This document shows positions 14,043 to 40,362 of a DNA stretch of 43,096 bases, one piece after another. Origin of the DNA: a virus; IMG/VR virus record IMGVR_UViG_3300048549_001807, positions 1 through 43,096 of that record. One strand, given 5' to 3'. The position numbers were made by a program, and so were the translations under genes. The stretch's first letter is position 1. The number at the start of each line of letters is the position of its first letter. The notes beneath the pieces were generated by a model. That model saw nothing but the letters and a program-made list of their open reading frames with translations. It was not told where the DNA came from and ran no database searches.

Positions 14043-14402
14043 ATGGCTTTTTCTTATTGTCCCCATTGTGGTTATAAAAATATGTACTCTATGAATCCTC
14101 CTAAATTTTGCGGAGGATGTGGAGAAGGTTTAAACGTGTTGTCTGCGGCAAAAAATAGTTCAGACAAATCAACTACTCGACGCCCGCTTTCAAAAAAAGC
14201 GAGCAATATATCTATCGATGATCCAGATGGAGTAGATATATATGAAGTTCCAGAGATATCTAAATTATCATATAGCATTGAACAAGACGCGAATAAATTT
14301 AGTCTCAAAGAATTAGTTCCGCTTGATGAACTTAATGAATTTAAAGAGGATGAACCAACTGTAAAAAAGACTAAGAAACGTGGAAGACCAAGAAAATCCT
14401 AA
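14043..14402 (+). CDS. Zinc-ribbon protein with C-terminal AT-hook-like tail, 119 aa
   Basis: N-terminal C-P-H-C-G-Y ... F-C-G-G-C-G (Cys at about residues 6, 9, 23 and 26) is a zinc ribbon. The middle is low complexity and acidic (DDPDGVDIYEVPEI), and the end, TKKRGRPRKS, contains the G-R-P core of an AT-hook, which binds the minor groove of AT-rich DNA. The next gene, a sigma factor, begins inside this one (23 nt overlap), so the two are probably made together; a late-transcription cofactor is a reasonable inference. Preceded by TATAAT 9 nt before the ATG. Confidence 0.6.
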   Translation: MAFSYCPHCGYKNMYSMNPPKFCGGCGEGLNVLSAAKNSSDKSTTRRPLSKKASNISIDDPDGVDIYEVPEISKLSYSIEQDANKFSLKELVPLDELNEFKEDEPTVKKTKKRGRPRKS

Positions 14403-15123
14403 ATATAATTACGAAGACAAAGCGAAAGAAATTGATGTTGAAATAAAAAAAAGAAGGGGTAAGTGGTTTTTAGATTCGCTTGCTTGGTTCGACTTTGAGG
14501 ATGTTGAACAAATAATCAAAGCTCATATTCATAAAAAATGGGACCAATGGGATCAAAGAAGATCTCTTAAACCTTGGATCAATAAGATTATTACCAATCA
14601 AATGAAAAACATTTTGCGAAATAATTATAGCAACTTCGTGAGACCATGTTTAAACTGTCCATTTAATCAATCATGCGCGTCCAAAGATGGCGGAGAGTCT
14701 TCTCTATGCGGATTCACTAAAAGCGGTTTACAGGACTCTTCTTGTCCATTATACGCAAAATGGGAAAGAACGAAAAAATCTGCATACGAAATCAAGATGG
14801 CTCTAGCTCTCGAAAATCACTCGCACGAAGTATCTTCTATGCATGATAATAATTTTGATATAATAGATGCCCAAAAGAAATTAAATATTTATATGAAAAA
14901 AGAGTTAAGCGAAAAACAGTATCAAGTATATGAATTATTATTTGTAGAACATATGGACGAAGAAGATGTTGCAAAAAAAATGGGATACAAGACAAACGAG
15001 AAAGGAAGAAAAGCTGGATACAAACAAATTAAAAACTTAAAAAAAATGTTCAAGCAAAAAGCTCAAGAAATACTAGATCATCAAGATATTATTTGCGTTA
15101 GAGAGGGCCCTCCATGGATTTAA
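14380..15123 (+). CDS. Phage sigma70-family RNA polymerase sigma factor with Cys-rich insert, 247 aa
   Basis: Region-2-like segment at about residues 36-86 (WFDFEDVEQIIKAHIHKKWD, then RSLKPWINKIITNQMKNILR) and region-4-like HTH at 170-232 (LSEKQYQVYELLFVEHMDEE followed by DVAKKMGYKT). Between them lies a Cys-rich insert (Cys90, 93, 99, 110, 122), probably metal binding, which normal sigma factors lack. It should direct host RNA polymerase to phage late promoters. The start is a GTG at 14380 inside the zinc-ribbon gene; no ATG is available before region 2. It overlaps the next gene by 10 nt. Confidence 0.75.
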   Translation: MEDQENPKYNYEDKAKEIDVEIKKRRGKWFLDSLAWFDFEDVEQIIKAHIHKKWDQWDQRRSLKPWINKIITNQMKNILRNNYSNFVRPCLNCPFNQSCASKDGGESSLCGFTKSGLQDSSCPLYAKWERTKKSAYEIKMALALENHSHEVSSMHDNNFDIIDAQKKLNIYMKKELSEKQYQVYELLFVEHMDEEDVAKKMGYKTNEKGRKAGYKQIKNLKKMFKQKAQEILDHQDIICVREGPPWI

Positions 15124-16166: not shown

Positions 16167-16840
16167 AAAAAATAGTCTTAGAGAATCAGGTTTTTTCTAG
16201 TGATGTCTGCGAGAAAACCGAAAGCAAATTTAACGGATTGAATGCGTTAGGTTTCAGCTGGAGACCTGGTCAGGAAATGTTTTCTCTAGAAATAAAGTCT
16301 TGCAAAATTGACGGCTTGGGCGTTGCCGAGGGATTAAAGTTATCTTTCTGTAGAAATGTAAAAGTGATCGACTCAACTATAATCGGCGGCTATGAAGATT
16401 GCGTGGACATCGTGAGAGGCGAAAACATAACATTTGAAAATTGTGACTTTATCGCAAACAGCGGCACAAAGCAACATATAACCTGTAAATGTGGCGCAAA
16501 AAATATAGTATTCAAGAATTGCAATTTCATTGGGTCTTTCCGTAATTGGTGGGATGGAGCATGTATAGACCTCGGTAACTGGGGAGATTATGACGATGTG
16601 GATCGACCAAAAGTTAGAGGCGTATCAATTATAAATTGCAAATTAAAAAATGTAATGTTCCCGATTTTATATAGACGCTTATATTCAAACACTCCTAGAG
16701 TTAAATCTTCGAGCGGTTTTGGTCTCAGGGTTCCGAACATATTTGTGAAAATATTTTGGCTTCTACAAAGAAAAGAGTTGATAGGTAAGCGTAGAAGGTT
16801 TCCCGAGAATTGGTTAAAAGTATATGATTTTGAGCTATGA
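16163..16840 (+). CDS. Right-handed parallel beta-helix protein, 225 aa
   Basis: Successive rungs such as NVKVIDSTIIGG, NITFENCDFIAN, NIVFKNCNFIGS and GVSIINCKLKNV show the short-strand, Asn/Cys-ladder pattern of pectate-lyase-like beta-helices; Y-E-D-C-V-D-I resembles the G-x-D-D/C loops of that fold. The last about 45 residues are basic and hydrophobic (FVKIFWLLQRKELIGKRRRF). Such proteins are often fibre or depolymerase domains, yet this one is embedded in the packaging operon with ATGA overlaps on both sides. No obvious catalytic triad can be assigned. Confidence 0.6.
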   Translation: MKKIVLENQVFSSDVCEKTESKFNGLNALGFSWRPGQEMFSLEIKSCKIDGLGVAEGLKLSFCRNVKVIDSTIIGGYEDCVDIVRGENITFENCDFIANSGTKQHITCKCGAKNIVFKNCNFIGSFRNWWDGACIDLGNWGDYDDVDRPKVRGVSIINCKLKNVMFPILYRRLYSNTPRVKSSSGFGLRVPNIFVKIFWLLQRKELIGKRRRFPENWLKVYDFEL

Positions 16841-17754
16841 ATAATTGTAAAATATGTGGTCAAAGTTTTGAGTCAGAAAAAAAGCTGCACATGCATCTGC
16901 GCTCTCACAAAATAACTTTAGCAGAATACTATACAAAATACTTTCCTAGAAATAATTTATTAACTGGAGATCCATTGCCTTTTAAAAACAAAGAGAATTA
17001 TTTCGACAGAGATTTTTCAAACAGAAAACAACTACTTCAATGGTGCCAAGAAAATCAGGGTGAAAAAGTAAAAAGCTATATCTTGAAAATCTTAAAACAA
17101 AGAATACAAAATAAAGAATTAAGTTTTGGTCCATCACATATAGAACTATCTACAAGTCAACTACCAACTATAGATTTATATAAAGAATATTTTGGATCAT
17201 ATAGTACGGCTTGTGAATTGTGCGGAGTAAAACCTTTGTTTGGTGCTGGATTGCCAGAAACATGGAGCGAAGAGGTTGATGAAAATATAAAAATATTTAT
17301 AGACACAAGAGAACGACAACCTTTGTCATTCAAAAATTCGGAGTCACTAAAATTAGACTTTGGAGATTACGCTGTAGGCCAAGAGCATTACGCCTATACA
17401 TATGTCGACAGAAAAAGCGAAACAGATTTTAAATCCACGCTTAGCAAAAATAATTTAGAGCGTTTTGAAGCAGAGCTGCAAAGAACAAAAGATTTCGATA
17501 GCTACTTGTTTGTAGTTACCGAAACAGACATGTCAACAATGGAGAAAAGAAATCGGTGGTCACCTCACACATCAAATATGAAATACATTTATCACAACAT
17601 GAGAGTATTGGCTCATAAATTTGCAGGAAATTGTCAATTTATTTTTACAGGCGGAAGAAAACAATCAGAAAAATTAATACCCAAATTATTGACAATGGGC
17701 AAAAGTTTATGGAACGTAGATCTTCAATACTACATAAATAAAAAAATAATATAA
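16837..17754 (+). CDS. C2H2 zinc finger plus ERCC4-type nuclease, 305 aa
   Basis: Residues 4-24 form a classical C2H2 finger (C4-x2-C7-x12-H20-x3-H24). Residues 152-285 contain an ERCC4/XPF-type nuclease core: IFIDTRER (153-160), FGDYAVG with Asp177, and V-D-R-K-S-E-T-D (Asp191, Lys193, Asp197), i.e. the GD...ERKxxxD motif with Asp in place of the first Glu, followed by FEAELQR. It should cut branched or flap DNA. Position directly before the terminase (TAATG overlap) suggests that it trims replication intermediates for packaging. Confidence 0.75.
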   Translation: MNNCKICGQSFESEKKLHMHLRSHKITLAEYYTKYFPRNNLLTGDPLPFKNKENYFDRDFSNRKQLLQWCQENQGEKVKSYILKILKQRIQNKELSFGPSHIELSTSQLPTIDLYKEYFGSYSTACELCGVKPLFGAGLPETWSEEVDENIKIFIDTRERQPLSFKNSESLKLDFGDYAVGQEHYAYTYVDRKSETDFKSTLSKNNLERFEAELQRTKDFDSYLFVVTETDMSTMEKRNRWSPHTSNMKYIYHNMRVLAHKFAGNCQFIFTGGRKQSEKLIPKLLTMGKSLWNVDLQYYINKKII

Positions 17755-24397: not shown

Positions 24398-24922
24398 ATG
24401 AGCGATATATCAGAAAGTAATTCGTATTCCAATTCAAACGACAATAAAAAAGTCAAATCTGAACTGTTTCATATTTGGAAAAAAGCAAGAGTAATGTATG
24501 AGACAGTTAAAGATGACTCTAAAATGGAAGATTGGGTTAAAAAAAATATCACAAAAGCTTATGAGTTGATTGACGAAGCAATGAGATATTCAGAATACGA
24601 AAAAATATTTCCAAATTCAGAAGAAAAAGAAGAATTAGAAGGCGATAAAAATAACTTTCTGTCCAACGAGGACAAAAGATATCCAACTCCCGCCGCTCAA
24701 GAAACCGGAGATGAATTTATCACAAGATGCATTTTAGATGCAAATATGAAAAAAAGATATCCTGTTCAGGGAGACAGGTTTTCTGCATGCATGTCTATTT
24801 ATAATGATAAAAAGAATGATGTCTCTGAGGACTTACATAATAATCCTGGAGAAAAATTTGAAGATCCTATGTTAACTAAAGATCTAGAATTACCAAATCC
24901 AGTTAAACCTCTTCTTCCTTAA
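24398..24922 (+). CDS. Helical protein ending in an F..RC....R..AC motif, 174 aa
   Basis: The N-terminal part is a charged helical bundle (ELFHIWKKARVMYETVKDDS). The second half carries YPTPAAQETGDEFITRCILD, then YPVQGDRFSACMS, the same Cys motif as in the 52-aa protein at 12369. Its end overlaps the convergent clpC-like gene by 20 nt, with no terminator between them, so the two units read into each other. Likely a minor head or packaging protein; unproven. Confidence 0.5.
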   Translation: MSDISESNSYSNSNDNKKVKSELFHIWKKARVMYETVKDDSKMEDWVKKNITKAYELIDEAMRYSEYEKIFPNSEEKEELEGDKNNFLSNEDKRYPTPAAQETGDEFITRCILDANMKKRYPVQGDRFSACMSIYNDKKNDVSEDLHNNPGEKFEDPMLTKDLELPNPVKPLLP

Positions 24923-27380
24923 TTTCGTATTTTATATTTTCTTTTAATATAGAAAATTTTATTTCTGAATTTTCTTTTAAGACTTTACCAAGAATAAGTT
25001 TACTTAGTTCGTTTTCTATTAATTTTTGAATAATTCTTTTGATTGGTCTTGCGCCCATTTTTTCTTCGTGAGCTTTTGTTGATATATATTCAAAGATTTT
25101 AGGTGTTGCAGATAGTGTTATATTTTTATCTTTTAGCTTGTCGCAAACTTTATTAAATTCTAACTTAGATATCTTAACAAGTTGAGGCAAATCAAAATCT
25201 TGGAATAAAATAATATCATTTAAGCGATTTAAAAACTCGGGCCTAAAAAAGCCCTTAAGTTCTGACCTAAGTTTATCTAGAGCTATAGACTCCGAAGAAC
25301 TTTGTCCAAATCCTATATTAGGCTTTGCAGCTTTTTCACTACCAATATTACCTGTTAAAATAATAATTGTATTATTGAAATTAATTTTTCTACCAGAATT
25401 GTCTGTTACAACCCCTTCTTCCATGATTTGCAATAAAATATTTAAAACTTCAGGATGGGCTTTTTCTACCTCATCAAACAAAATAACACTATACGGATTT
25501 CTTCTTACTTTTTCTGTCAGCTCTCCTCCTTCTTCGTATCCTACATACCCAGGAGATGCTCCAATTAATCTAGAGGCAGAGATTTTTTCACTATACTCGC
25601 TCATATCAATTTGAATCAATGTGCTTTTACTTCCAAAAATAAACTCAGAGATGCATTTTGCAGTATAAGTTTTTCCTGTGCCGCTTGCGCCCACAAGAAG
25701 AAAACTACCTATAGGTTTTTTTGGGTCTTTAAGTCCTGATTTTGAACGCAGTATAGATTCGGAAATTTCCTCCAAGGCTTTTGATTGACCAATAATTTTT
25801 TTATTCAAGTTTTTAAATAGGTTTAACATTTTTTCAGAATCTTTTTTACTTATTTCTTGCATTGGTATCCCTGTTCTCGAGGAAAGTACTTCATAGATAT
25901 CTGAAGGTTTGACCTTTATTTTTGATTTACTGATTTTATTTGCCCATTTAGTTATGACTGCATCATATTCTTCTAATAAATCTAATTGCTCATCTTCAAT
26001 ATCTTCTATACTAAAACCAAGAGACTGCTTTCTGGATTCTTTGAGTGCAAGCAGCTCAAGCTCATTTTCTATATCTTTTGCCTCTTGTGGTCGTTTAATG
26101 TTTTTAATTTTTACTTTAGACCCCGCTTGATCCATAATATCTATCGCTTTATCTGGAAATTGTTTATCTAAAATATATTTAGAAGACAAGTCTACAATTA
26201 AATCCAAAACTTCTTCTGGATAGTGAATACTATGAAAGCTTTCGAATTTAGATTTTACGCCATCAAGTATCTGCCTCGTTTGCTCTTTTGTTGGTTCTAT
26301 AACTTTTACAGACTGAAACCTTCGATCAAGCGCTCCATCTTTAAGTATAGTTTTTTTGTATTCATCCTGGGTTGTAGCTCCAATACATTTTAATTCTCCT
26401 CGGGCCAATAAAGGCTTTAAAAGATTTGCGGCATCCATACTGCCTTCTGCGCTACCAGCACCTACTAAAGTATGAATTTCATCAATAAATAAAATTATCT
26501 CTTGATTTTTTCTAGCTTCTTCTATTACGCCTTTTAAGCGCTCTTCAAATTGACCTCTGTATTTAGTTCCTGCAATTAAAGATCCAAGATCTAAAGAATA
26601 TATTATTTTAGCCAAGAGAAAGTCAGCGCAATCTTGTTTTTCAATTTGTTGAGCCAAGCCTTCCACTATTGCCGTTTTACCAACTCCAGGTTCACCAAGT
26701 AAAACAGGATTATTTTTTGTTCTTCTGCATAAGATTTCTGAAACATCATAAATTTCAGATTCTTTTCCAATTATGTTATCAAACTTTCCTTTTGCTGCTA
26801 ATTCATTTAGATTAGTGGCATATTTTTCTAGATTAGGAATCTTACTTTCTTTAACTGTTTGTGCTGATTTTTTAATTTGTTGAATTCTGCTTTTTTTATC
26901 TACAGATGTTTCTTTTGAAATATGTAAGTAATCCCTGACTTGAGCAATAACGTCTTCTTCGGACGCATTGAATTTAACAAAAAATAATGGTATATTCGAG
27001 TGCTCATATTTTAAAAGAGCTAAAATGATATGTTCTACTCCTACATACTCATGTCCAAGTTTATGAGCAATCGATGCGGAAACTTTTAGAACTAGATGAA
27101 AATGTTCATCGTATTCTGGGTTAATAGAGTCATTCATAAAATTTTGATGCTTTTTATTGATTTTGTAAAAAGAGCGTTCTATATCTTCTTTCAGAAGCTC
27201 TCGGTCGATTTCAAGCAAAAATAATATTTCACTAAGTATACCAGCATTTAAATTAACCATTCCATAGAAAAGATGTTCCAATTCGACATGTTCATTGGAA
27301 AATTTTTTGGCTACCCTTTTCGCTTCACTAATTGCTTGTTGCGCTCTCGGCGTAAAATTAGGTTTAGGAGTCATTTTCAT
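24903..27380 (-). CDS. clpC: ClpC/ClpA-type AAA+ unfoldase with ClpP-docking loop, 825 aa
   Basis: Clp-N domain (residues 5-150), AAA-1 with GEPGVGKT (229-236) and [13 protein letters not shown], a short middle domain (about 430-485), AAA-2 with GASGTGKT (564-571), [14 protein letters not shown] and [12 protein letters not shown]. After sensor 1 the loop reads PNIGFGQ (IGF at 689-691), the position and sequence of the ClpP-binding tripeptide of ClpA/ClpC/ClpX, so it should dock a ClpP peptidase. No ClpP is encoded in view; the host's is the likely partner. ClpB is excluded by the short middle domain and IGF loop. Starts: ATG 27380 or ATG 27374, the latter 7 nt after GTG-TAATTT. Confidence 0.88.
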
Positions 27381-27381
27381 T

Positions 27382-27390
27382 AAATTACAC
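27382..27390 (-). promoter_or_regulatory. Late-type promoter motif GTG-TAATTT before the clpC-like gene
   Basis: Minus strand GTG (27390-27388), TAATTT (27387-27382), 7 nt to the ATG at 27374. It could give the unfoldase a second, late promoter inside the replication operon. Confidence 0.4.
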
Positions 27391-27395
27391 AATAA

Positions 27396-29954
27396 TTACT
27401 TAACGTCAGACATTTTCATGTATATCTTTTCGTCCATAATATTAATTGAATCAAGAAATAATATATCTTCTGCTTTTCTGCCATATGCTATTATAATACT
27501 CTTTTTTAAGGGAGTTTTCTCTTTTCTCTCAAAATATCTATCATAATAATTTCCCCTTCTAGAATTTAGAAGCATAGCATCGTATTTACCGTATTCATCT
27601 GAAATAGAAAGTTTCATGTATTTATTACCATTTCTTGAGGTTCTTTTAATGCAGTCATCCACTACGCCTATAAATTTACCTTTATCATCTAAGTCCATAA
27701 TATTTAGATCTCTAGAATCTAACAAAGAATTATAATTGTCTATAAAGCAGCTTTTTAAATTGCAGCTATGACTGTATCCAAGAAGTTCCGTCTCAAAGTA
27801 CCAATTTGCGAAGCTTTGATATTCTTTATTTTTATCATAAATAGATTTATATATATCATATTTCTTTTTGAATGTTTTGAATCTAGATTCTTTCATTAAG
27901 GGTTTTCCGTCGTCCCCAACTAATTCTCCCTTTTTTGCATCTGCTATACAATTTAAAAGTTTATATTCATATTTTTCTCCTAAAGCAATAAAGTTACGTT
28001 TCTCGCGATCAGTTAATAAATTAAATGCTTGAGCTTCAAGCACCATTAGCGATCTATTTTCACCTTTACTCTCTAATGCTCCAGCTTGAATTAGAGCACT
28101 TAAAACTCCAATATTTAATCCCGCCTGTTTTGCGGCAAGAAAAATATCATACTTTGTTGGGGTTTCGCTTGATCTAAAATCTTTTAATGACTGCAAAGAT
28201 TTTTCGCTCACACCCTTTATGCTATTTAAGCCAAATCTAATATTTTTACCCTCAATCGAGAAGTCCATACCGGATTTTGCTAAGTCTGGAGATAATAATT
28301 TAATACCAAAATGAGATAATTCTTTACATATTTTTGCAATTTCTTCTTGAGGAGAGGGTTCGTATTTCGTCATCTTCAATAAAGAGATGAAAAACTGCTG
28401 AGGGTAATTAAATTTAAGATAACTTGTCCAAGCTGATAATGTAGCATATGCCAAAGAGTGAGACTTGTTAAAGGAATAGTTTGCACTATCCTCTGCAACG
28501 CTCCACAGTATCTGAGAAATCTCTCTAGGTAGATCATTTTCTACTACTTTGTCTTCGATTTTCTTTTTCCATGCGGGCATTTGATCTACTTTTTTCTTGC
28601 CAACGATCCTTCTTAATTGCTCTGATTCGTCAAGTGTAAACCCAACCTTAACTGCCATCTGCATTAACTGTTCTTGGTATAGCGGAATACCTCCTGTATA
28701 ATCTAAAACATCACTGAAAAATTCATGAATTACTTGAGCTTCTTCGGTTTCAGAATATGTAGCATAGTTGTCCAAGAATTCCAATGCGCCAGGCCTGCCA
28801 ATTGCAACCACCGCACTAAGCTGCTCTAGGTCTCTAGGTTTAATCTTTTTACAAACCCTATAGTTAGTATCAGATTCAAGCTGAAAAAGTCCATGAGGGG
28901 TTCTTAGCGCTTGTAATGGCTTGTATACATTTGAATCATTTAAGTCTACGGCGGAGATGTCTATATCTAAGTTGCTGCATACATCATAAATCACGCTCAA
29001 AGTCCTCAAACCAAGAATATCAAATTTAACCATGAGTTCTGCAACCCAATTCATATCATAACCTGTAACCAAGGCTCCGTCATTAGATTTTTGAATTGGG
29101 CAGATATCTGTAATTTTTTGAAAAGAAATTGCAATACCGCTAGGGTGAACTCCAGTATTTTTATTTAGACCTTCTAGTTTCAGCGCGATCTCAAAAACTT
29201 CTGGGTTTTTAGCTGACCAATCTGCAAATTTTTCACTTTCTTCAATCGCAGATAAAATTGGCATAACAACTCCAAATCTCTTTGGGATCGTATCACTTAC
29301 TTCGTTAACTTCTTGCTCGGAAAATTCCCCAACGATTTTGCCACATTCTTTTACGCAAAGCTTTCCGCTCAAGGTATTTAATGTTAAAATCTTAGCTGTA
29401 CGAGCTGGATGTTTCTTTTCAATATATTCGATAACTTCGGCTCTTCTTTCATAAGCAATATCGTTATCTACATCAGCTAAAAGACTGCCATCAAGGTATG
29501 TGATTCCATCTTTCTCTATTTTTCTAGCTCTGCTTTTAGAAACAAATCTCTCGAAGAATAAACTATACTTTACGGGATCAACATTAGTAACGCCAATTAA
29601 ATACAGCACTAAAGAGCCTGCTGCAGACCCTCTTCCTGGACCTGTTGGTATATCGTTTTCGTGGCAATAATTTAATATATCCCAGTTTAACAAAATATAA
29701 TCTATGAATCCTAGCTCATCTAAAATTTTTAATTCTGATTTTGCTCTATCAAAGTATTCTTTTTTGTTTTTAAATTTATCAATACCTTTATCATAAACAC
29801 CTTTGTGGCAAAGCTTGCGAAGAAAGTCTAAATTAGAAATATCTTCTGGAGCCTCAAGTATTTCATAATATTTCTTTTCGATCTTAATTTCAGGAAGTCT
29901 TACGCCTGGAGGAGCGCAATCTTCGTAGCTTGTAAATTGTTCTGTAAAATTCAT
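27396..29954 (-). CDS. dnaE: C-family DNA polymerase body (DnaE without PHP domain), 852 aa
   Basis: Starts just before the palm: PTGPGRGSAAGSLVLYLIG (103-121), catalytic Asp161 and Asp163 in ADVDND, and Asp312 in VKFDILGL. Further DnaE landmarks are GLFQLES (355-361), IGRPGALEF, PLYQEQLMQMA, LRRIVGKKK and FNKSHSLAYA, followed by HhH-like GLNSIKGVSEKSL and a C-terminal OB-like domain (GKFIGVVDDCIKRTSRNGNK). The PHP domain is encoded two genes upstream. Start taken at the ATG overlapping the exonuclease stop (TAATG). It should be the replicative polymerase; no beta-clamp-binding peptide was assigned. Confidence 0.9.
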   Translation of the reverse strand: MNFTEQFTSYEDCAPPGVRLPEIKIEKKYYEILEAPEDISNLDFLRKLCHKGVYDKGIDKFKNKKEYFDRAKSELKILDELGFIDYILLNWDILNYCHENDIPTGPGRGSAAGSLVLYLIGVTNVDPVKYSLFFERFVSKSRARKIEKDGITYLDGSLLADVDNDIAYERRAEVIEYIEKKHPARTAKILTLNTLSGKLCVKECGKIVGEFSEQEVNEVSDTIPKRFGVVMPILSAIEESEKFADWSAKNPEVFEIALKLEGLNKNTGVHPSGIAISFQKITDICPIQKSNDGALVTGYDMNWVAELMVKFDILGLRTLSVIYDVCSNLDIDISAVDLNDSNVYKPLQALRTPHGLFQLESDTNYRVCKKIKPRDLEQLSAVVAIGRPGALEFLDNYATYSETEEAQVIHEFFSDVLDYTGGIPLYQEQLMQMAVKVGFTLDESEQLRRIVGKKKVDQMPAWKKKIEDKVVENDLPREISQILWSVAEDSANYSFNKSHSLAYATLSAWTSYLKFNYPQQFFISLLKMTKYEPSPQEEIAKICKELSHFGIKLLSPDLAKSGMDFSIEGKNIRFGLNSIKGVSEKSLQSLKDFRSSETPTKYDIFLAAKQAGLNIGVLSALIQAGALESKGENRSLMVLEAQAFNLLTDREKRNFIALGEKYEYKLLNCIADAKKGELVGDDGKPLMKESRFKTFKKKYDIYKSIYDKNKEYQSFANWYFETELLGYSHSCNLKSCFIDNYNSLLDSRDLNIMDLDDKGKFIGVVDDCIKRTSRNGNKYMKLSISDEYGKYDAMLLNSRRGNYYDRYFERKEKTPLKKSIIIAYGRKAEDILFLDSINIMDEKIYMKMSDVK

Positions 29955-30598
29955 TATACTTCTATTTCCCATATCATTTTTTTAAATACTTCGTAGTTAA
30001 CTCTAATGTCATATAAAGCATCATGCAATTTTTTCTCATCAAAGTCAACATCAAAATCTTTACAGCATTGTTTAAGATTGCAGCTTAAACCTCTCTCAAT
30101 CAAGTGGTTAAGGCGATATTGCCATGCTAAAAAATTATCGTCTTTGTCCAGCTTAATTCTCTTCTTTAGAGCTTTTGCCAAGCAAAGAGTATCCACAAGG
30201 TTTTCTGTATAACTAAAATCAGATTTTGCGTTTGAATCTATAAGTTTGCGATGCAGGTTATGCATATAAACATCAAAGCCAAGTAAGTTATGACCAACCT
30301 TGAGATACGAATCGTCATATAAATATTTCTCAAAATGATCTAATGCAGCTTTAGGACATGTGGCTTTTTTCTTGTATTTCGCCTCTGTAAAGCCAGTAAT
30401 CTTTGCGGCATCAGGAGATACATTTAATTTGTCCCATTTGAGCCAGTAATCTTTTTGCTCAACAATTTTGTTGTTTTCTATAACAAGAAATGCTAATTGC
30501 CATGGTTTATTATTGGACACAAGATTTAAATTACATGTTTCATAATCAAACAGTAAGTATTTTTTATTTTTTTGAAATCTAAGCAGTGATTCTTTCAT
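29954..30598 (-). CDS. dnaQ: DnaQ-like 3'-5' exonuclease, 214 aa
   Basis: DEDDh exonuclease: Exo I LFDYETCN (Asp18, Glu20), Exo II VGHNLLGFDVYMHN (Asp109), Exo III HDALYDIRVNYEVFKKM (His192, Asp197). The start at 30598 is chosen because GGAAGGAG lies 4-11 nt upstream; an earlier in-frame ATG at 30631 lacks such a site. It overlaps the PHP gene by 20 nt and the polymerase by one base, so the three are produced together; it should proofread for the split DnaE. Confidence 0.88.
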   Translation of the reverse strand: MKESLLRFQKNKKYLLFDYETCNLNLVSNNKPWQLAFLVIENNKIVEQKDYWLKWDKLNVSPDAAKITGFTEAKYKKKATCPKAALDHFEKYLYDDSYLKVGHNLLGFDVYMHNLHRKLIDSNAKSDFSYTENLVDTLCLAKALKKRIKLDKDDNFLAWQYRLNHLIERGLSCNLKQCCKDFDVDFDEKKLHDALYDIRVNYEVFKKMIWEIEV

Positions 30599-31352
30599 TT
30601 TTCTCCTTCCAGCTTTCGAAGCAAAATTCATTGCTACCGAAGTGATCTAAGTTTGGTTTTGATAATGTTTTATTGCCAAAGCTTCTACCTGTTATACATT
30701 TGTATGTTTGTAAAGCTTTTACGTCTTTTTTATTTTTATAATATATACTTTTTACTTTTTCTGTTTTCAGTGATTTATTGTTTGCATATTCTTGAACTTT
30801 CTTAGATAAGAAGATGTCAAATGGCAGAGAATTATCCTCAATAAAAAATGTTGGACCACAAAAAGAAAAGTTTGGAGAGCAGTTGGAAAATTTCATCAAA
30901 TTATTATATATAAAACTATCATAAAAAGGGATAGCTAATAATAAATCCTTATCGCTCCAGTGCTTTTTGAGTATTTTTTCGTCAACACAATTAAAGTTTT
31001 CAGAAAATGCTTCGCTGTATATGCTGTTTAGCAACTTGCATCCTTTGGAATTTTTAGAGAAAATTATAATTTTATGAGAACTATCTACAGATTCTTCTTT
31101 TGGATCTAAAGAAGCTTTTTCTCTCATGTTAACTCTGAGCCCGAAAATTAATTTTAGATTTAAAGAATCTGCATTTTTTTTGGCTTGCAAGAACCCTGTT
31201 AGAGAATCTTCTACTAAAATTATTTCTTTTAAATTATTTTCTACAGCAATCGAAAAAATACTATCTGCACCCCCTTCTTTATGTGTACTAGGATTGTCTA
31301 GAGTTAATATACTTTTGCCGATAGAAAAGTGACTTTTAAATAATGGTATCAT
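30579..31352 (-). CDS. Separate PHP domain of a split DnaE, 257 aa
   Basis: The N-terminus LFKSHFSIGKSILT corresponds to the H-x-H-S-x-Y-S-x-x-D-G start of DnaE PHP domains, and AVENNLKEIILVEDSLTGFL followed by ADSLNLKLIFGLRV fits the A...G...A-x-T-D-H ... G-x-E core. C-terminal segment (KALQTYKCITGRSF) matches the end of DnaE PHP. First His of H-x-H and the His of the T-D-H motif are replaced (Phe or Lys region, Ser), so metal binding is probably lost and the domain structural. First gene of the replication operon, directly after a consensus promoter. Confidence 0.75.
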   Translation of the reverse strand: MIPLFKSHFSIGKSILTLDNPSTHKEGGADSIFSIAVENNLKEIILVEDSLTGFLQAKKNADSLNLKLIFGLRVNMREKASLDPKEESVDSSHKIIIFSKNSKGCKLLNSIYSEAFSENFNCVDEKILKKHWSDKDLLLAIPFYDSFIYNNLMKFSNCSPNFSFCGPTFFIEDNSLPFDIFLSKKVQEYANNKSLKTEKVKSIYYKNKKDVKALQTYKCITGRSFGNKTLSKPNLDHFGSNEFCFESWKEKNERITA

Positions 31353-31358
31353 GCTAAT

Positions 31359-31387
31359 ATTCTAGCAAAAAAACAGTTTCATGTCAA
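31359..31387 (-). promoter_or_regulatory. Promoter of the replication operon, leaderless geometry
   Basis: Minus strand TTGACA (31387-31382), 17-nt spacer ending TGC, TAGAAT (31364-31359), exactly 6 nt to the ATG at 31352. Near consensus. Confidence 0.8.
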
Positions 31388-31397
31388 CAAAGAAAAG

Positions 31398-31406
31398 TTA
31401 TCCACA
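31398..31406 (+). promoter_or_regulatory. DnaA-box match TTATCCACA between divergent promoters
   Basis: Exact match to the strongest form of the DnaA box, 11 nt from the -35 of the replication promoter and 15 nt from that of the nrdA promoter. Context AAAAGTTATCCACAA repeats that of the three early copies. Confidence 0.55.
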
Positions 31407-31420
31407 ATAAGGGTTTCAGA

Positions 31421-31449
31421 TTGACACAAACGCAGTAAAATGTTAATAT
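31421..31449 (+). promoter_or_regulatory. Promoter of nrdA
   Basis: TTGACA (31421-31426), 17-nt spacer ending TGT, TAATAT (31444-31449), 12 nt to the ATG at 31462. Confidence 0.75.
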
Positions 31450-31461
31450 TTAAAACTCAAT

Positions 31462-35292: not shown

Positions 35293-36576
35293 TTAAGCCA
35301 ATATATCAAGTAAAGGTTCACCTTTATGAGCTATTGTAAATGGCCTTCCAGAAGGAGAATACTGGTAGTCATTTAGAGGAAGTCCTAAAGTATGAGCAAT
35401 AGTTGCATTCAAGTCTTCTGGCTTGATTGGTTTACCTTCTATAGGAGATCTTCCTGTTTTATCGGTTTCCCCGTAAGTCATACCGCCTTTGATTCCGCCT
35501 CCTGCAAGAAATGCGGTAAAACAGTAAGGCCAATGATCTCTTCCGTCTCTACCGTTAATATTTGGGGTTCTCCCAAATTCAGAAGTTAATACCACCAAAG
35601 TCTCCGAAAGTAGACCTCTCCTGTTCAAATCAAAAAGTAATCCGCTTAAAGCCTGATCTATGTCTGCGCAATTCGCTGCTACTCTATCAAAGTTGTTATC
35701 GTGAGTATCCCATCCTCCTCGTGTTACTTCGACATATCTAACACCGTTTTCAACCAATCTTCTTGCTAATAAACAACCTTTTCCGAAATTAGTTTGACCG
35801 TAAAGCTCGCTTGTTGCTACTGTTTCTTTTGTTATATCGAAAGCGTTTAAATCGTCACTATTCATTAATTTAACTGCATCTTTATATAGATCAGAGTAAG
35901 CTCTAACTTGTTTTTGAGGAAACTGAGTAGAAAAATTCTCATTTAATGCCTCTGCGATAGATATTCTGCTTTGAAAATGCTCGTGATCTAGATATGATGC
36001 CATTTTACTATTAGATAATCCTGCGGCTGGATTATTGATTGGTAAGGCGCCATATTTAGATTCTAGAAATCCTGCTCCGCCTCCTCCTCCGCCAATTTTA
36101 ACATTGGATGGAATGGTTCTATTTATTGCACCTCCAAGTTTAGAAACCCAGCTACCAAACGTTGGGTGCACAATAGTGCCTCTTTTGAGGTAACTGGTAT
36201 GCATAAGATAACTCGCTTGTTCATGAGCTCCCTGACTAGTATTCATAGTTTTAATAATTGCACCATGATGCATAAACTGTGCGGTTTTGGGTAAATTTTC
36301 TGATAAAATCACTCCGTCTGCACTAGTTGGAATAGATTTTGTCGGCCCCTGAATATCTGGCGCATCAGGCTTTGGCCCAAAAGTATCAAGGTGAGACATG
36401 GCTCCTGACATATTTAAATATATAACGTGTCTAGCTGTTGGTATTCTGGATGCAGGCTCAAGGGCGCTAACATTGTTATGTATATAAGCTCCGGCCATAG
36501 GCATTAAGCCTACCCCAAAGCACGCTTTTGCGGCATACGCAATAAATTCTCTTCTTCCTAATTCATTTACTTTCAT
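35293..36576 (-). CDS. DUF1501 family protein with Tat-type signal, 427 aa
   Basis: Begins with a twin-arginine-like signal (G-R8-R9-E-F-I-A-Y-A-A-K) as usual for DUF1501. Family landmarks follow: HVIYLNMSGAMSHLDTFGPK, the HEQASYLMHTSY region, a Gly-rich loop, RYVEVTRGGWDTHDNN, LVVLTSEFGRTPNINGRDGR followed by DHWP, and FLAGGGIKGGMTYG. DUF1501 belongs to the alkaline-phosphatase/sulfatase superfamily and abounds in Planctomycetota and Verrucomicrobiota, where it pairs with DUF1549/DUF1553, as here. It would act outside the cytoplasm; substrate unknown. Very unusual as phage cargo. Second gene of the operon from 38868. Confidence 0.9.
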   Translation of the reverse strand: MKVNELGRREFIAYAAKACFGVGLMPMAGAYIHNNVSALEPASRIPTARHVIYLNMSGAMSHLDTFGPKPDAPDIQGPTKSIPTSADGVILSENLPKTAQFMHHGAIIKTMNTSQGAHEQASYLMHTSYLKRGTIVHPTFGSWVSKLGGAINRTIPSNVKIGGGGGGAGFLESKYGALPINNPAAGLSNSKMASYLDHEHFQSRISIAEALNENFSTQFPQKQVRAYSDLYKDAVKLMNSDDLNAFDITKETVATSELYGQTNFGKGCLLARRLVENGVRYVEVTRGGWDTHDNNFDRVAANCADIDQALSGLLFDLNRRGLLSETLVVLTSEFGRTPNINGRDGRDHWPYCFTAFLAGGGIKGGMTYGETDKTGRSPIEGKPIKPEDLNATIAHTLGLPLNDYQYSPSGRPFTIAHKGEPLLDILA

Positions 36577-36597
36577 AATTTTATTTGGTTTTAGTTT

Positions 36598-38868
36598 TTA
36601 TTTTATAAATATAAATTCGTGTGTGTTTATTAAAGTCCAGATTATTTCTTTATATACCTCTTTCTTGTCTTTTAATGACGATTTAAATAATGATATTTCT
36701 TTTGAGGATGGATTTCTATTTAAAATATATCTAAATCCAACTTTAATTTTATCATCTAGAGATTTTTGAGATTGCAATGCTTTAATAATTTCAAAGTTTT
36801 TATTTTTTAATAATCTTGTTTCTACAAAGCCATTAAGTAAATTGAGCACCTGTGTTGCAGAAGCGCTTTTGTTTGCGTTTTCGATCTGCTCTCTGTCTGA
36901 ACCCCCAAACTCGCGAATAAGGTGTCCTACAGGCGCAGGAGAGGGTAATTCGGAGGCTCGTACAGAATTGCGGTCTTTCACGAAGTTTTGTTTGTAATCG
37001 TCTTTCTTGGTTTGTTGCTGGGATTTAAATTTATCAACACAAGATTCGCAGCAAAATGCAACCGTCTCTCCGTTTTCATTAAGAGCTAATAAAGTTGGAT
37101 CAATAGCTCTGCCTGGTTTAATTGGGCAATCTGTATTTATTGGTTCTGTGAATTTTGGTTTATTTGCTGTTTTTGGCCTTTCGGTTTTATTTATTTTGGC
37201 CATAAGATCTTGAAATAATTCTTCGCCAGTCATTGCCGAAAAGTTTTGAAAGTCTTCGTAGCCTTTTGTGTTTTGCTGAAGTTTTCTGGAATCTATATCG
37301 TTAAACGTTAAATTTACTAATGAATCCCAGACTTGTTCGCCACTCATTCTTTCAAGCATTGGCCCTTGATAGAAATATGGAATAGCGTTGTGAGATTGTT
37401 TTTCAGAATTTGGTCCTGCGATAATCCATTTTACATCTACAGGCATAGACTGATCTTTATTATCTTTTGGGATAACATCTCTTATTACAGATTGACGCTG
37501 AAAAGTTTTTGTGTTATATAATACCCTTAAAAACTCTTTTAAATCGTAATCTAAAGCTACCATAACTTTTTCCAAATGTAGCTGAAGTTTTGGATCTGTA
37601 GCTAATGTATCATCAAACATGTTATCAATTGGCTCAATTAAAGCTAGTCCAAAAGCTTCTTTCCATAACCTATTTACAATAACAGCTGTAAATCTAGGAT
37701 TCGAATCTGTTGCAAGCCAATTTGCATATATTTCTCGAGACCCTGCTTGAGGGGCTTTTGTTTTTATGTCGATTTCTTTTCCAAAAATTGTTTTTCCAGA
37801 TAATGTTTCGCTTGGCTTTGCGTTGTCGTATTGATAGTCATTTGGTAAATTAATTTTTCCTGAACCCAGACTATCTAAGCCTGTTTGAAGAATGTCTTGA
37901 ATGCCCCTAGATTCATTTCTTAGCTGTCTAGATTTTTGCGGCTCACCTGCTTGCTCTAGCCTTCTTTGTTCTGTATTAACCAATCTATTAAATTGACCTA
38001 AATTATCAACACCTCTTCTTCTTAGATTTGTCGAACCGCTTGTGAACGCAGCCATTTCGTAGAATTGTTTTTGTGTCCAGCGATCAAATGGATGATCATG
38101 GCACTGGGCGCATTCAAGACTAGTGCCAAGAAAGATGCGAACTGTATTGGCCATATTGTCGAGGGGCATGTTTACATCTCGCGCAAAGTAACTAACTCCT
38201 TCATTACCTCTTTCCCATAAAGCTCCAGATGAAGAAAGCATTTCTCTTACCCAAACATCATATGGTCTATTGTTTGATATAAATTCTTTTACATAATTTT
38301 TATATGGTATACCTGATACTCTATTATTTAATCTATCTTTTATTCTTAATATATCAGCCCAAAAGTTAAACCAATGACTCACATACCCTTCGCTGCCTAA
38401 TAGTTGATCTATTAATTTTGATCTTTTGTTTTTGCCTTTACTATTTAAAAAGGTGTCTACTTCCGTTAACGACGGAGTTCTCCCGATAACCTTTAAATAA
38501 GATCTGCGCAAAAATGTAGCATCATCAACTTCTTTGTTTGGTTTGAGGTTATATGATCGTAATTTTGTTTCAATTAAACTATCAATATATCTTGCATGGG
38601 TATTTAAATCTTTATCTGATAGTGGTTTTTTAAATTTCGGCAAAGCTTCGTGGCTTGGCGGGAAGTTGTTTTTGATATAAGCTTGATTATCTTCTGTAAG
38701 AGAATCTATTGCTATTCTAAATAATTGTAGATCACTTGCTCTTTTTATTAAAGCGTGAGTCGCATTCGCTTCAAGAATATCTCCTTTCAAGTCTTTTCCG
38801 TTATTAAAGTATAATGTATCTCCAAGACAATAAAAAGACGAGATTAATAATAAAAGTAGTTTTTTCAT
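36598..38868 (-). CDS. DUF1549/DUF1553 protein with heme-type CxxCH and YHS-like insert, 756 aa
   Basis: Signal peptide (residues 1-16, KKLLLLLISSFYCLG), then a small domain (DTLYFNNGKDLKGDILEANA ... LTEDNQAYIKNNFP) of the kind found at the start of verrucomicrobial secreted proteins. DUF1549 covers about 90-275, with FLRRSYLKVIGRTPS and C253-A-Q-C256-H257 followed by DHPFDRWTQ; DUF1553 follows from about 375 (YANWLATDSNPRFTAVIVNR). A Cys-rich insert (C581-P-I ... F-C606-C607-E-S-C610) resembles YHS/TRASH metal-binding domains. Exported; CxxCH may hold heme c. Promoter with leaderless geometry; the DUF1501 gene follows. Confidence 0.88.
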   Translation of the reverse strand: MKKLLLLLISSFYCLGDTLYFNNGKDLKGDILEANATHALIKRASDLQLFRIAIDSLTEDNQAYIKNNFPPSHEALPKFKKPLSDKDLNTHARYIDSLIETKLRSYNLKPNKEVDDATFLRRSYLKVIGRTPSLTEVDTFLNSKGKNKRSKLIDQLLGSEGYVSHWFNFWADILRIKDRLNNRVSGIPYKNYVKEFISNNRPYDVWVREMLSSSGALWERGNEGVSYFARDVNMPLDNMANTVRIFLGTSLECAQCHDHPFDRWTQKQFYEMAAFTSGSTNLRRRGVDNLGQFNRLVNTEQRRLEQAGEPQKSRQLRNESRGIQDILQTGLDSLGSGKINLPNDYQYDNAKPSETLSGKTIFGKEIDIKTKAPQAGSREIYANWLATDSNPRFTAVIVNRLWKEAFGLALIEPIDNMFDDTLATDPKLQLHLEKVMVALDYDLKEFLRVLYNTKTFQRQSVIRDVIPKDNKDQSMPVDVKWIIAGPNSEKQSHNAIPYFYQGPMLERMSGEQVWDSLVNLTFNDIDSRKLQQNTKGYEDFQNFSAMTGEELFQDLMAKINKTERPKTANKPKFTEPINTDCPIKPGRAIDPTLLALNENGETVAFCCESCVDKFKSQQQTKKDDYKQNFVKDRNSVRASELPSPAPVGHLIREFGGSDREQIENANKSASATQVLNLLNGFVETRLLKNKNFEIIKALQSQKSLDDKIKVGFRYILNRNPSSKEISLFKSSLKDKKEVYKEIIWTLINTHEFIFIK

Positions 38869-39222: not shown

Positions 39223-39876
39223 TTAGAAAGACAAAGTGAATGCTGCAGATAATAAATCTTCTCCGTCAATAGAATCTGAGTTTACACGAGTATAACCAAT
39301 GGAAGCTCCTACTGATTCGGATAGGTTCTTTGATAAAGAAGCTCCAAGTGAGTGGTAATCATTATCCTCAATACCATATCTATCTGCATTTCCCAGAGAA
39401 CCTGCTAAGGTTAAATCTGCGAAATCTAGATCAAACTTATGAGAAATTCCTCCTTCAAAAACATAGTTATCATCGCTCGTATCTCTTAAAATCAAAAAAT
39501 ATGGAGATAGAGCGTAATCAAGATTAATGCTGAGTGCCGCATCAAGTTGACTGCCTCCGTCAATAATTTCTTCATGTTGAATTCCGATGTAAACATTTAA
39601 TAATTCTCCAATTGCGTTGGAAACGCCTCCAGAAAATGTATAAACACTTTGTCCGTCAGACAACTCATCGACAGACGAGGCAGAGCCTTCAACATTTAAG
39701 CCTCCGATTTGCGCGCCATAAGATACCGAAGCTGAAATACTTTCTTCTGTCAAAAGCGAACCTTTGCTAAATGTATCGGTGCCATAACCCAAGGAAACGG
39801 TGCCTGATCCAGCATGGACTGCGTTAATAAATAAAGCTGCTACAAGAGCAGTAACTGTTAGTAGTTTGGTTTTCAT
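39223..39876 (-). CDS. Outer-membrane beta-barrel (porin-like), 217 aa
   Basis: A clear signal peptide (MKTKLLTVTALVAALFINAV, cleavage after HA) precedes about ten alternating-residue beta strands (GTVSLGYGTD, SISASVSYGAQ, LNVEGSASSV, VYIGIQHEE, ASIGYTRV), and the last residue is Phe in AAFTLSF, the recognition signal for barrel insertion. It should sit in the host outer membrane and pass small solutes or mask a receptor. Phage-encoded porins are rare. Promoter TTGACA-N17-TATAAT lies upstream with a 14-nt leader. Confidence 0.8.
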   Translation of the reverse strand: MKTKLLTVTALVAALFINAVHAGSGTVSLGYGTDTFSKGSLLTEESISASVSYGAQIGGLNVEGSASSVDELSDGQSVYTFSGGVSNAIGELLNVYIGIQHEEIIDGGSQLDAALSINLDYALSPYFLILRDTSDDNYVFEGGISHKFDLDFADLTLAGSLGNADRYGIEDNDYHSLGASLSKNLSESVGASIGYTRVNSDSIDGEDLLSAAFTLSF

Positions 39877-39890
39877 AATTAAAACTCATA

Positions 39891-39919
39891 ATTATAAATC
39901 ATTTAATCACTAATGTCAA
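39891..39919 (-). promoter_or_regulatory. Consensus promoter of the porin operon
   Basis: TTGACA (39919-39914), 17-nt spacer, TATAAT (39896-39891), 14 nt to the ATG at 39876. Both boxes are perfect consensus; it lies at the 3' end of the Hsp20 gene. Confidence 0.8.
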
Positions 39920-40362
39920 GTAATTTTTATTTTATTTTTAGATTTATTTTCTTTTCTTGGAATTCTTATTTCTAATATACCATTGTTCATTTTTGCGGAA
40001 ATCTTATCTTCATTTACTTCTCCGTTTAATTTAAATGTGTTTTTAAATCCATCTTTAAATATTTGTTGTTGAATGTATTCTCCTTCTACAGAGATTTCTT
40101 TTGGGGTTTTGTATGAGACAATTAATTTTCCTTTTTCGCAATCAATATTGATATCTTCTTTGGGAATGCCAGGGGTTAAAAGCTCGATTAAAACTTCGTT
40201 TTCTTTTGATAAAACATTTGCCTGCACAGGATAGTCATCGAGTTCATTGAAAAATTCATAATCATCTGATGATGAAAAATTAAGGAATAGATCGTTTAGC
40301 AAACTGTTCATTGTTGATTTTGTTGATTTTGGTCTATAATTTTTTTTAAAGTAATATGCCAT
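39916..40362 (-). CDS. Small heat shock protein, Hsp20/alpha-crystallin, 148 aa
   Basis: The alpha-crystallin domain spans about residues 45-137: VLIELLTPGIPKEDINIDCE with GKLIVSY, and the signature A-K-M-N-N-G-I-L-E-I-R-I-P near the C-terminus. The N-terminus (MAYYFKKNYRPKSTKSTMNS) is polar, and the tail is Lys-rich without an I-x-I anchor except IKIT. Hsp20 genes occur in many T4-like marine phages and hold unfolded proteins. The upstream region contains TTAACCCTTAAC, also present before the gene at 3380. Confidence 0.9.
   Translation of the reverse strand: MAYYFKKNYRPKSTKSTMNSLLNDLFLNFSSSDDYEFFNELDDYPVQANVLSKENEVLIELLTPGIPKEDINIDCEKGKLIVSYKTPKEISVEGEYIQQQIFKDGFKNTFKLNGEVNEDKISAKMNNGILEIRIPRKENKSKNKIKIT

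Follow-up and report, generated by a model that had tools for sequence, protein, structure and literature searches.

Our main finding is that the window, by which we mean the whole 43-kb stretch of viral DNA that was analyzed, encodes an intact and competent-looking two-ring ClpC-type AAA+ unfoldase. Four of its properties can be read from the sequences themselves: the ATPase and pore machinery, an invariant PhiGF loop, the loss of the M-domain tip, and strict linkage to a DNA polymerase gene. A hijack of host regulated proteolysis by this protein is plausible, and the case for it is now stronger than the initial annotation could make it. On balance, we lean toward a model in which a ClpC from the Verrucomicrobiota branch would dock on ClpP, act free of adaptors, and feed host ClpP during phage replication.

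A ClpC-type gene at the end of a polymerase gene run

The gene encodes 825 amino acids from an ATG start at 27380. A longer alternative frame (24903-27392, minus strand) opens with TTG and spans 829 amino acids; the ATG is the conserved start and lies 15 bases past the dnaE stop. Although the initial annotation had the coordinates and length right, we corrected the strand to minus because the plus strand at 24903-27380 contains many stops. The features of the locus are as follows, with the basis for each in parentheses.

24903-27380, minus: clpC-type gene, 825 amino acids (reading frame, Pfam, solved relatives)
26946-27380, minus: Clp_N N-terminal domain, about residues 1-145, boundary approximate (Pfam Clp_N at 107-155 of the 829-residue frame, alignment, model)
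25944-26123, minus: M-domain helical hairpin, about residues 420-479, lacking the aromatic tip motif of bacterial ClpC and shorter by 2-3 residues (alignment, model)
25308-25316, minus: PhiGF (IGF, residues 689-691), predicted tip of the ClpP-docking loop (alignment; positions computed from residue numbers)
27396-29972, minus: DNA polymerase III alpha (DnaE), polymerase part, 858 amino acids, directly upstream of clpC (Pfam, NCBIfam, PHROG)
29954-30631, minus: DnaQ-type exonuclease, second gene of the run (Pfam, PHROG)
30579-31352, minus: PHP (N-terminal) part of the split polymerase, first of the run (phrog_405 profile positions 62-291)
24398-24922, plus: convergent gene, function not assigned, its last bases overlapping those of clpC (frames, relatives' neighborhoods)
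31359-31387, minus: best promoter-like site of the region, upstream of the run, TTGACA-17-TAGAAT with TG before the -10 (consensus match only)

All parts expected of a ClpC, namely Clp_N, two AAA+ rings, and a D2-small domain, were recovered by Pfam, the structural model, and structure search. The Pfam matches are Clp_N, AAA, AAA_lid_9, AAA_2, and ClpB_D2-small. In an alignment of 26 phage and host rows, the Walker A and B motifs, pore tyrosines, arginine fingers, and sensors, to which we presume the corresponding functional roles, are invariant in both rings. The description of a full two-ring ATPase with a Clp-N domain is thus borne out, as is the assignment to the ClpC type, on which solved relatives, model matches, and the tree described below agree. 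The closest solved relatives are the ClpCs of S. aureus and B. subtilis (667 bits). For an AlphaFold2 model (mean pLDDT 82.3, pTM 0.55), the top eight PDB matches were all ClpC chains; in a viral structure library, the top match was ClpA of Klebsiella phage K64-1. NCBIfam models for ClpB, ClpA, and other Clp proteins matched below their cut-offs, and the 25 matches listed include no ClpC model. PHROG 4871 (“ATP-dependent protease”) covers the full length of the protein (E 6.6e-241), and therefore a phage family had already been catalogued.

As the initial annotation proposed, clpC comes last in the polymerase operon: after the PHP fragment, exonuclease, and DnaE, it is the fourth and final gene of a minus-strand run. 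We use the name PHP for the first fragment on the presumption that the usual order of polymerase domains applies. DNA polymerase III alpha is split in this phage (27396-31352, minus), such that the N-terminal part, an exonuclease gene, and the polymerase remainder form separate frames, and the PHP-Exo-DnaE order is common to relatives. An extra late promoter for clpC, also suggested at the outset as a possibility, finds no support, given that the region holds 30 promoter-like sites versus 28.7 +/- 4.9 in shuffled sequence. Two back-to-back promoter-like sites, both with TTGACA and TG before the -10, lie at 31359-31450, with the polymerase run on one side and the ribonucleotide reductase genes on the other.

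Relatives of the phage ClpC, with 37-80% identity, were found on 30 viral contigs. A polymerase gene lies directly upstream of clpC in all 24 relatives that include this region; one further contig (L020) starts inside ClpC, and five loci (L023, L025, L026, L028, and L030) do not have the polymerase neighborhood. DnaE is better conserved than ClpC in each of these 24 relatives (62-91% versus 45-80%). For six pairs of clpC genes, five of which have dS values above 1, dN/dS ranges from 0.032 to 0.054, which indicates strong purifying selection.

The predicted ClpP-docking loop and its likely partner

Counted from the ATG at 27380, the IGF tripeptide occupies residues 689-691, exactly as first numbered. 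Loss of the loop in homologous phages had been named as evidence that would count against docking, and yet [IVLM]GF is present at the aligned place in all 30 viral relatives. G690 and F691 are invariant in the 25 clade rows, and the same G and F occur in 78/78 bacterial ClpC rows (the best 80 matches listed, with 2 dropped). Across residues 681-711 of a 20-row alignment of the clade, no column other than 690 and 691 is invariant. The tripeptide is therefore more than a chance occurrence. In the AlphaFold2 model, loop residues 688-694 have pLDDT values below 50. According to a report on S. aureus ClpC, the equivalent loop (AGF, residues 671-673) makes contact with ClpP, and the interaction is abolished by the substitutions G672D and F673D (PMC12521514). 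At the loop, E. coli ClpA carries IGL and the ClpB-like protein encoded by a 735-kb phage carries QGM; no PhiGF motif is seen in ClpB of E. coli, ClpK of plasmids, or ClpL in the same alignment.

The conserved loop bears on two other readings. One, which we judge unlikely, is that the protein serves mainly as a ClpP-independent remodeler that takes apart or recycles replication complexes, such as the phage polymerase, with the loop a leftover or of secondary use. ClpX acts in a like manner on Mu transposase. The gene arrangement fits this idea, since clpC always comes right after dnaE, even in contigs with no structural genes seen on the flank (L021 and L022), and the same gene run occurs in G338 and G345. 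However, gene order alone may mirror shared timing, and an invariant GF within a fast-varying loop would be difficult to account for if the protein made no use of ClpP binding. The other reading, to which we give a very small chance, casts the phage ClpC as a decoy that would occupy host ClpP and block degradation by host ClpCP and ClpXP. Retention of the docking loop agrees with it, but a passive blocker would not need ATPase and pore residues, all of which are kept under purifying selection.

If the protein docks on a ClpP, the partner could come from the phage or from the host. Neither the window nor G030, a 125-kb relative, has a ClpP gene (PF00574); since the window comes from a linear viral contig of 43 kb, absence of a gene from it proves little. 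PF00574 was found in 3/31 viral contigs. When the check for a phage ClpP elsewhere was extended to relatives, some of them did yield a ClpP-like protein, and this protein looks unfit as a partner. In G016 and G017 it has a long N-terminal extension, its relatives occur in 80 viral loci, and its best PHROG is the head maturation protease phrog_94. The loci with a head-maturation-type protease of this kind and its long N-terminal extension include L189 (9947-10720), L113, and L114. Separately, contig G029 (L030, L112) carries a ClpA-type unfoldase plus a genuine-looking ClpP.

A fully phage-encoded Clp protease, formed by ClpC with this ClpP-like protein, therefore deserves to be weighed, and we find it very improbable. 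Both genes occur on five of 43 contigs (G016, G017, G337, G338, and G345). On the 211-kb contig G338, PHP-Exo-DnaE-ClpC is immediately preceded on its own strand by the ClpP-like gene, as part of one gene run, and the catalytic Ser, His, and Asp are kept in 49/49 rows. Set against this are the head-maturation class of the protein, the 38 contigs that have the protease and show no ClpC relative (many of them fragments), and the absence of any such protease from the window and from G030. The state of the docking site also argues against it. We take eight ClpP positions (48, 60, 62, 82, 90, 112, 114, and 189) to form the hydrophobic docking pocket. At six of these, nearly all 49 phage rows have a polar or charged residue or a glycine (48 T, 60 E, 82 mostly E/D, 90 G, 114 G, and 189 R/K), although 62 (V/I) and 112 (W) are still hydrophobic. 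The phage ClpP-like protease was thus rejected as the partner despite its intact triad.

ClpP is encoded by 14/14 bacterial genomes of the likely host group that carry related ClpCs. These host ClpPs keep L48, Y62, and L114 in 14/14 and F82 in 12/14; position 60 is non-hydrophobic in most of them too. On sequence grounds, host ClpP is therefore a more probable partner than the phage ClpP-like protein, which lacks most of this docking site. A review (PMC9035409) names none of the docking-site residues that we looked for, and the part of a second paper available to us describes the pocket without residue numbers (PMC8745299).

Loss of the M-domain tip and its predicted consequence

The M-domain hairpin is present in the AlphaFold2 model, with helices at residues 432-454 and 459-485. 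Between G420 and W479, bacterial ClpCs share a single spacing and an aromatic-acidic-x-A-(A/V/S) tip in 78/78 rows (again the best 80 matches listed, with 2 dropped), and a staphylococcal ClpC has the same spacing and tip. In contrast, the M-domain of the phage clade is 2-3 residues shorter and the aromatic tip motif occurs in 0/25 rows; all of these counts were made on the alignment (25 clade rows and 78 bacterial rows). The ClpCs of G338 and G345 likewise lack the tip. It is kept in L023, L025, L026, and L028 (4/4), and the loss is a single event in one lineage. Of the pArg-site glutamates, the E32-like residue is replaced in 8/25 clade rows (7 D, 1 N) and the other is kept in 25/25.

In S. 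aureus ClpC, the F436A change at the tip removes the resting state and makes the protein constitutively active, as described in PMC12583610. The aromatic tip is regulatory and is dispensable for being a ClpC. By analogy with the S. aureus protein, whose tip keeps it inactive, loss of the tip in the phage clade suggests a de-repressed phage ClpC, and we predict that it is always on.

The steps of the favored model can be laid out as follows. The phage lineage would have acquired its ClpC long ago, from the ClpC branch of Verrucomicrobiota, and kept it by purifying selection within the polymerase gene run. Hexamers of the protein may then use their PhiGF loops to engage the hydrophobic docking pockets of host ClpP. 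Since the phage protein is without the tip that holds S. aureus ClpC in the resting state, assembly would presumably proceed without an adaptor and bypass host control, and the complex would feed substrates to host ClpP during replication. These substrates may be host or phage proteins, and the host regulators and defense proteins suggested by the initial annotation would be candidates. Some observations weigh against the model, namely that ClpC is less conserved than DnaE, that the tip loss is a single event, and that the E32-like glutamate is replaced in part of the clade.

More tentatively, and as a possibility that we hold to be well short of even, a whole lineage of large phages (contigs up to 211 kb) may make a de-repressed ClpC together with its polymerase, as a degrader powered by host ClpP that ignores host adaptors and clears chosen proteins in replication. 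Such a protein would be a natural counterpart of F436A, and Staphylococcus phage SpP and the L023/L025/L026 group would have recruited ClpC independently. If that is true, capture of ClpP-competent unfoldases would be a repeated phage strategy. Should the phage ClpC dock on host ClpP without adaptors, it would give the phage a means of its own to redirect regulated proteolysis, and would serve as a natural test of how M-domain control of ClpC can be removed with activity left intact. The residues expected to matter are G690 and F691 in docking and, in regulation, the shortened tip of the M-domain.

Origin of the phage ClpC and its relation to known systems

Among the best 80 matches listed, the bacterial proteins nearest to the phage ClpC are from Verrucomicrobiota nearly throughout, and identity to the nearest of the matches listed is 41-44%. 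Recent host contamination was excluded because of this low bacterial identity and the polymerase-ClpC neighborhood shared by 24/24 relatives.

A tree was built from 71 chosen rows, whose bacterial members were gathered using patterns of the query ClpC from the best 80 matches listed. Several gut and wastewater “phage” records judged to resemble host DNA served as outgroups only, L050 and L069 were dropped because their frames were too short after extraction, and the partial ClpC of L020 was left out of the length-filtered alignment. The polymerase-linked phage ClpCs form one clade (21 rows, support 100), which, along with the long-branched L028, joins the Verrucomicrobiota ClpCs (support 98), although long branches make some joins in this tree unsure. 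The phylogeny called for by the initial annotation thus puts the phage protein in its own clade beside Verrucomicrobiota ClpC. A second group of phage-contig ClpCs (L023, L025, and L026; support 100) is separate and adjoins bacterial ClpCs (support 90), near those of Verrucomicrobiota; its members have an intact M-domain tip and no polymerase neighbor.

The likely host phylum is probably Verrucomicrobiota, as favored by the ClpC tree. The phage also carries DUF1501 and DUF1549/DUF1553 (PSCyt2/PSD1) genes (35293-38868, minus), which we take to be typical of PVC bacteria, and DUF1501 matches occur in 14/30 relative loci and in G030, G018, G016, and G017. The best DUF1501 identity was 53% among 145 Verrucomicrobiota genomes versus 54% among 149 Planctomycetota genomes. 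A literature search for Verrucomicrobia, phage, and DUF1501 jointly found no paper.

The phage protein groups with ClpC and away from ClpA, ClpB, and ClpK. This placement weighs on a further reading, which we regard as quite unlikely, that the protein is a stress chaperone or disaggregase that would act with a phage Hsp20 to protect phage proteins, like the plasmid hsp20-clpK pair. The window does contain an Hsp20 gene (39916-40362), Hsp20 matches occur in five clade relatives (L004, L005, G030, G016, and G018), and plasmid clpK is annotated beside hsp20. However, ClpK and ClpB are without the PhiGF loop, and neither that lack nor grouping with ClpB, the marks of such disaggregases, is found in the phage ClpC. 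A porin-like gene lies beside the Hsp20 gene (39223-40362, minus), and both recur in relatives.

Bacterial ClpCs (S. aureus, B. subtilis, Mycobacterium ClpC1, and Verrucomicrobiota) have the same N-D1-M-D2 order, ATPase residues, PhiGF loop, and fold as the phage protein, which differs in being phage-encoded, in its distance from the nearest bacterial matches listed, in its lost M-domain tip, and in its dnaE linkage. Two-ring Clp ATPases with a GF loop are also encoded by Agrobacterium phage Atu_ph07, Xanthomonas phage XaC1, and Sinorhizobium phage Phosso, all large phages whose proteins are of the ClpA type. Unlike the phage ClpC, these proteins and L030 group with E. coli ClpA in the 71-row tree, lack an M-domain where shown (Atu_ph07 and L030), and have other genes as neighbors (DnaJ in Atu_ph07 and Phosso). 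The phage ClpC has neither the missing M-domain nor the ClpA-branch position of RaK2-type phage ClpA. Another phage-encoded ClpC with an LGF loop is the “hypothetical protein” WZK93690.1 of Staphylococcus phage SpP. Its origin is separate, since it groups with staphylococcal ClpC; it lies beside small genes and an integrase rather than dnaE, and it has the bacterial M-domain spacing.

No paper describing a phage-encoded ClpC was found in the literature searched, where most subscription papers were lacking. To this extent, the view that such a hijack is undescribed stands, but related phage factors are in print. Atu_ph07 encodes ClpX, ClpA, ClpB, a ClpP, and ClpS, of which ClpA is shared by most RaK2-like phages (PMC6102473), and a ClpA family is among the shared families of “moraphages” (PMC12619734). 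Jumbo phages with ClpP, ClpS, ClpA, and ClpX are known, and phage ClpS is suggested to bring targets to host ClpAP (PMC7824862). SPO1 Gp53 is an adaptor-like modulator of host ClpCP (PMC6873191); it also represents phage control of ClpC-dependent proteolysis, but as a small adaptor on host ClpC, whereas here the phage brings the unfoldase.

Elsewhere in the window, two plus-strand genes gave matches just below the Pfam cut-off: a weak sigma-70 region 2 match at 14380-15123 and a zinc-finger plus ERCC4-like nuclease match at 16837-17754.
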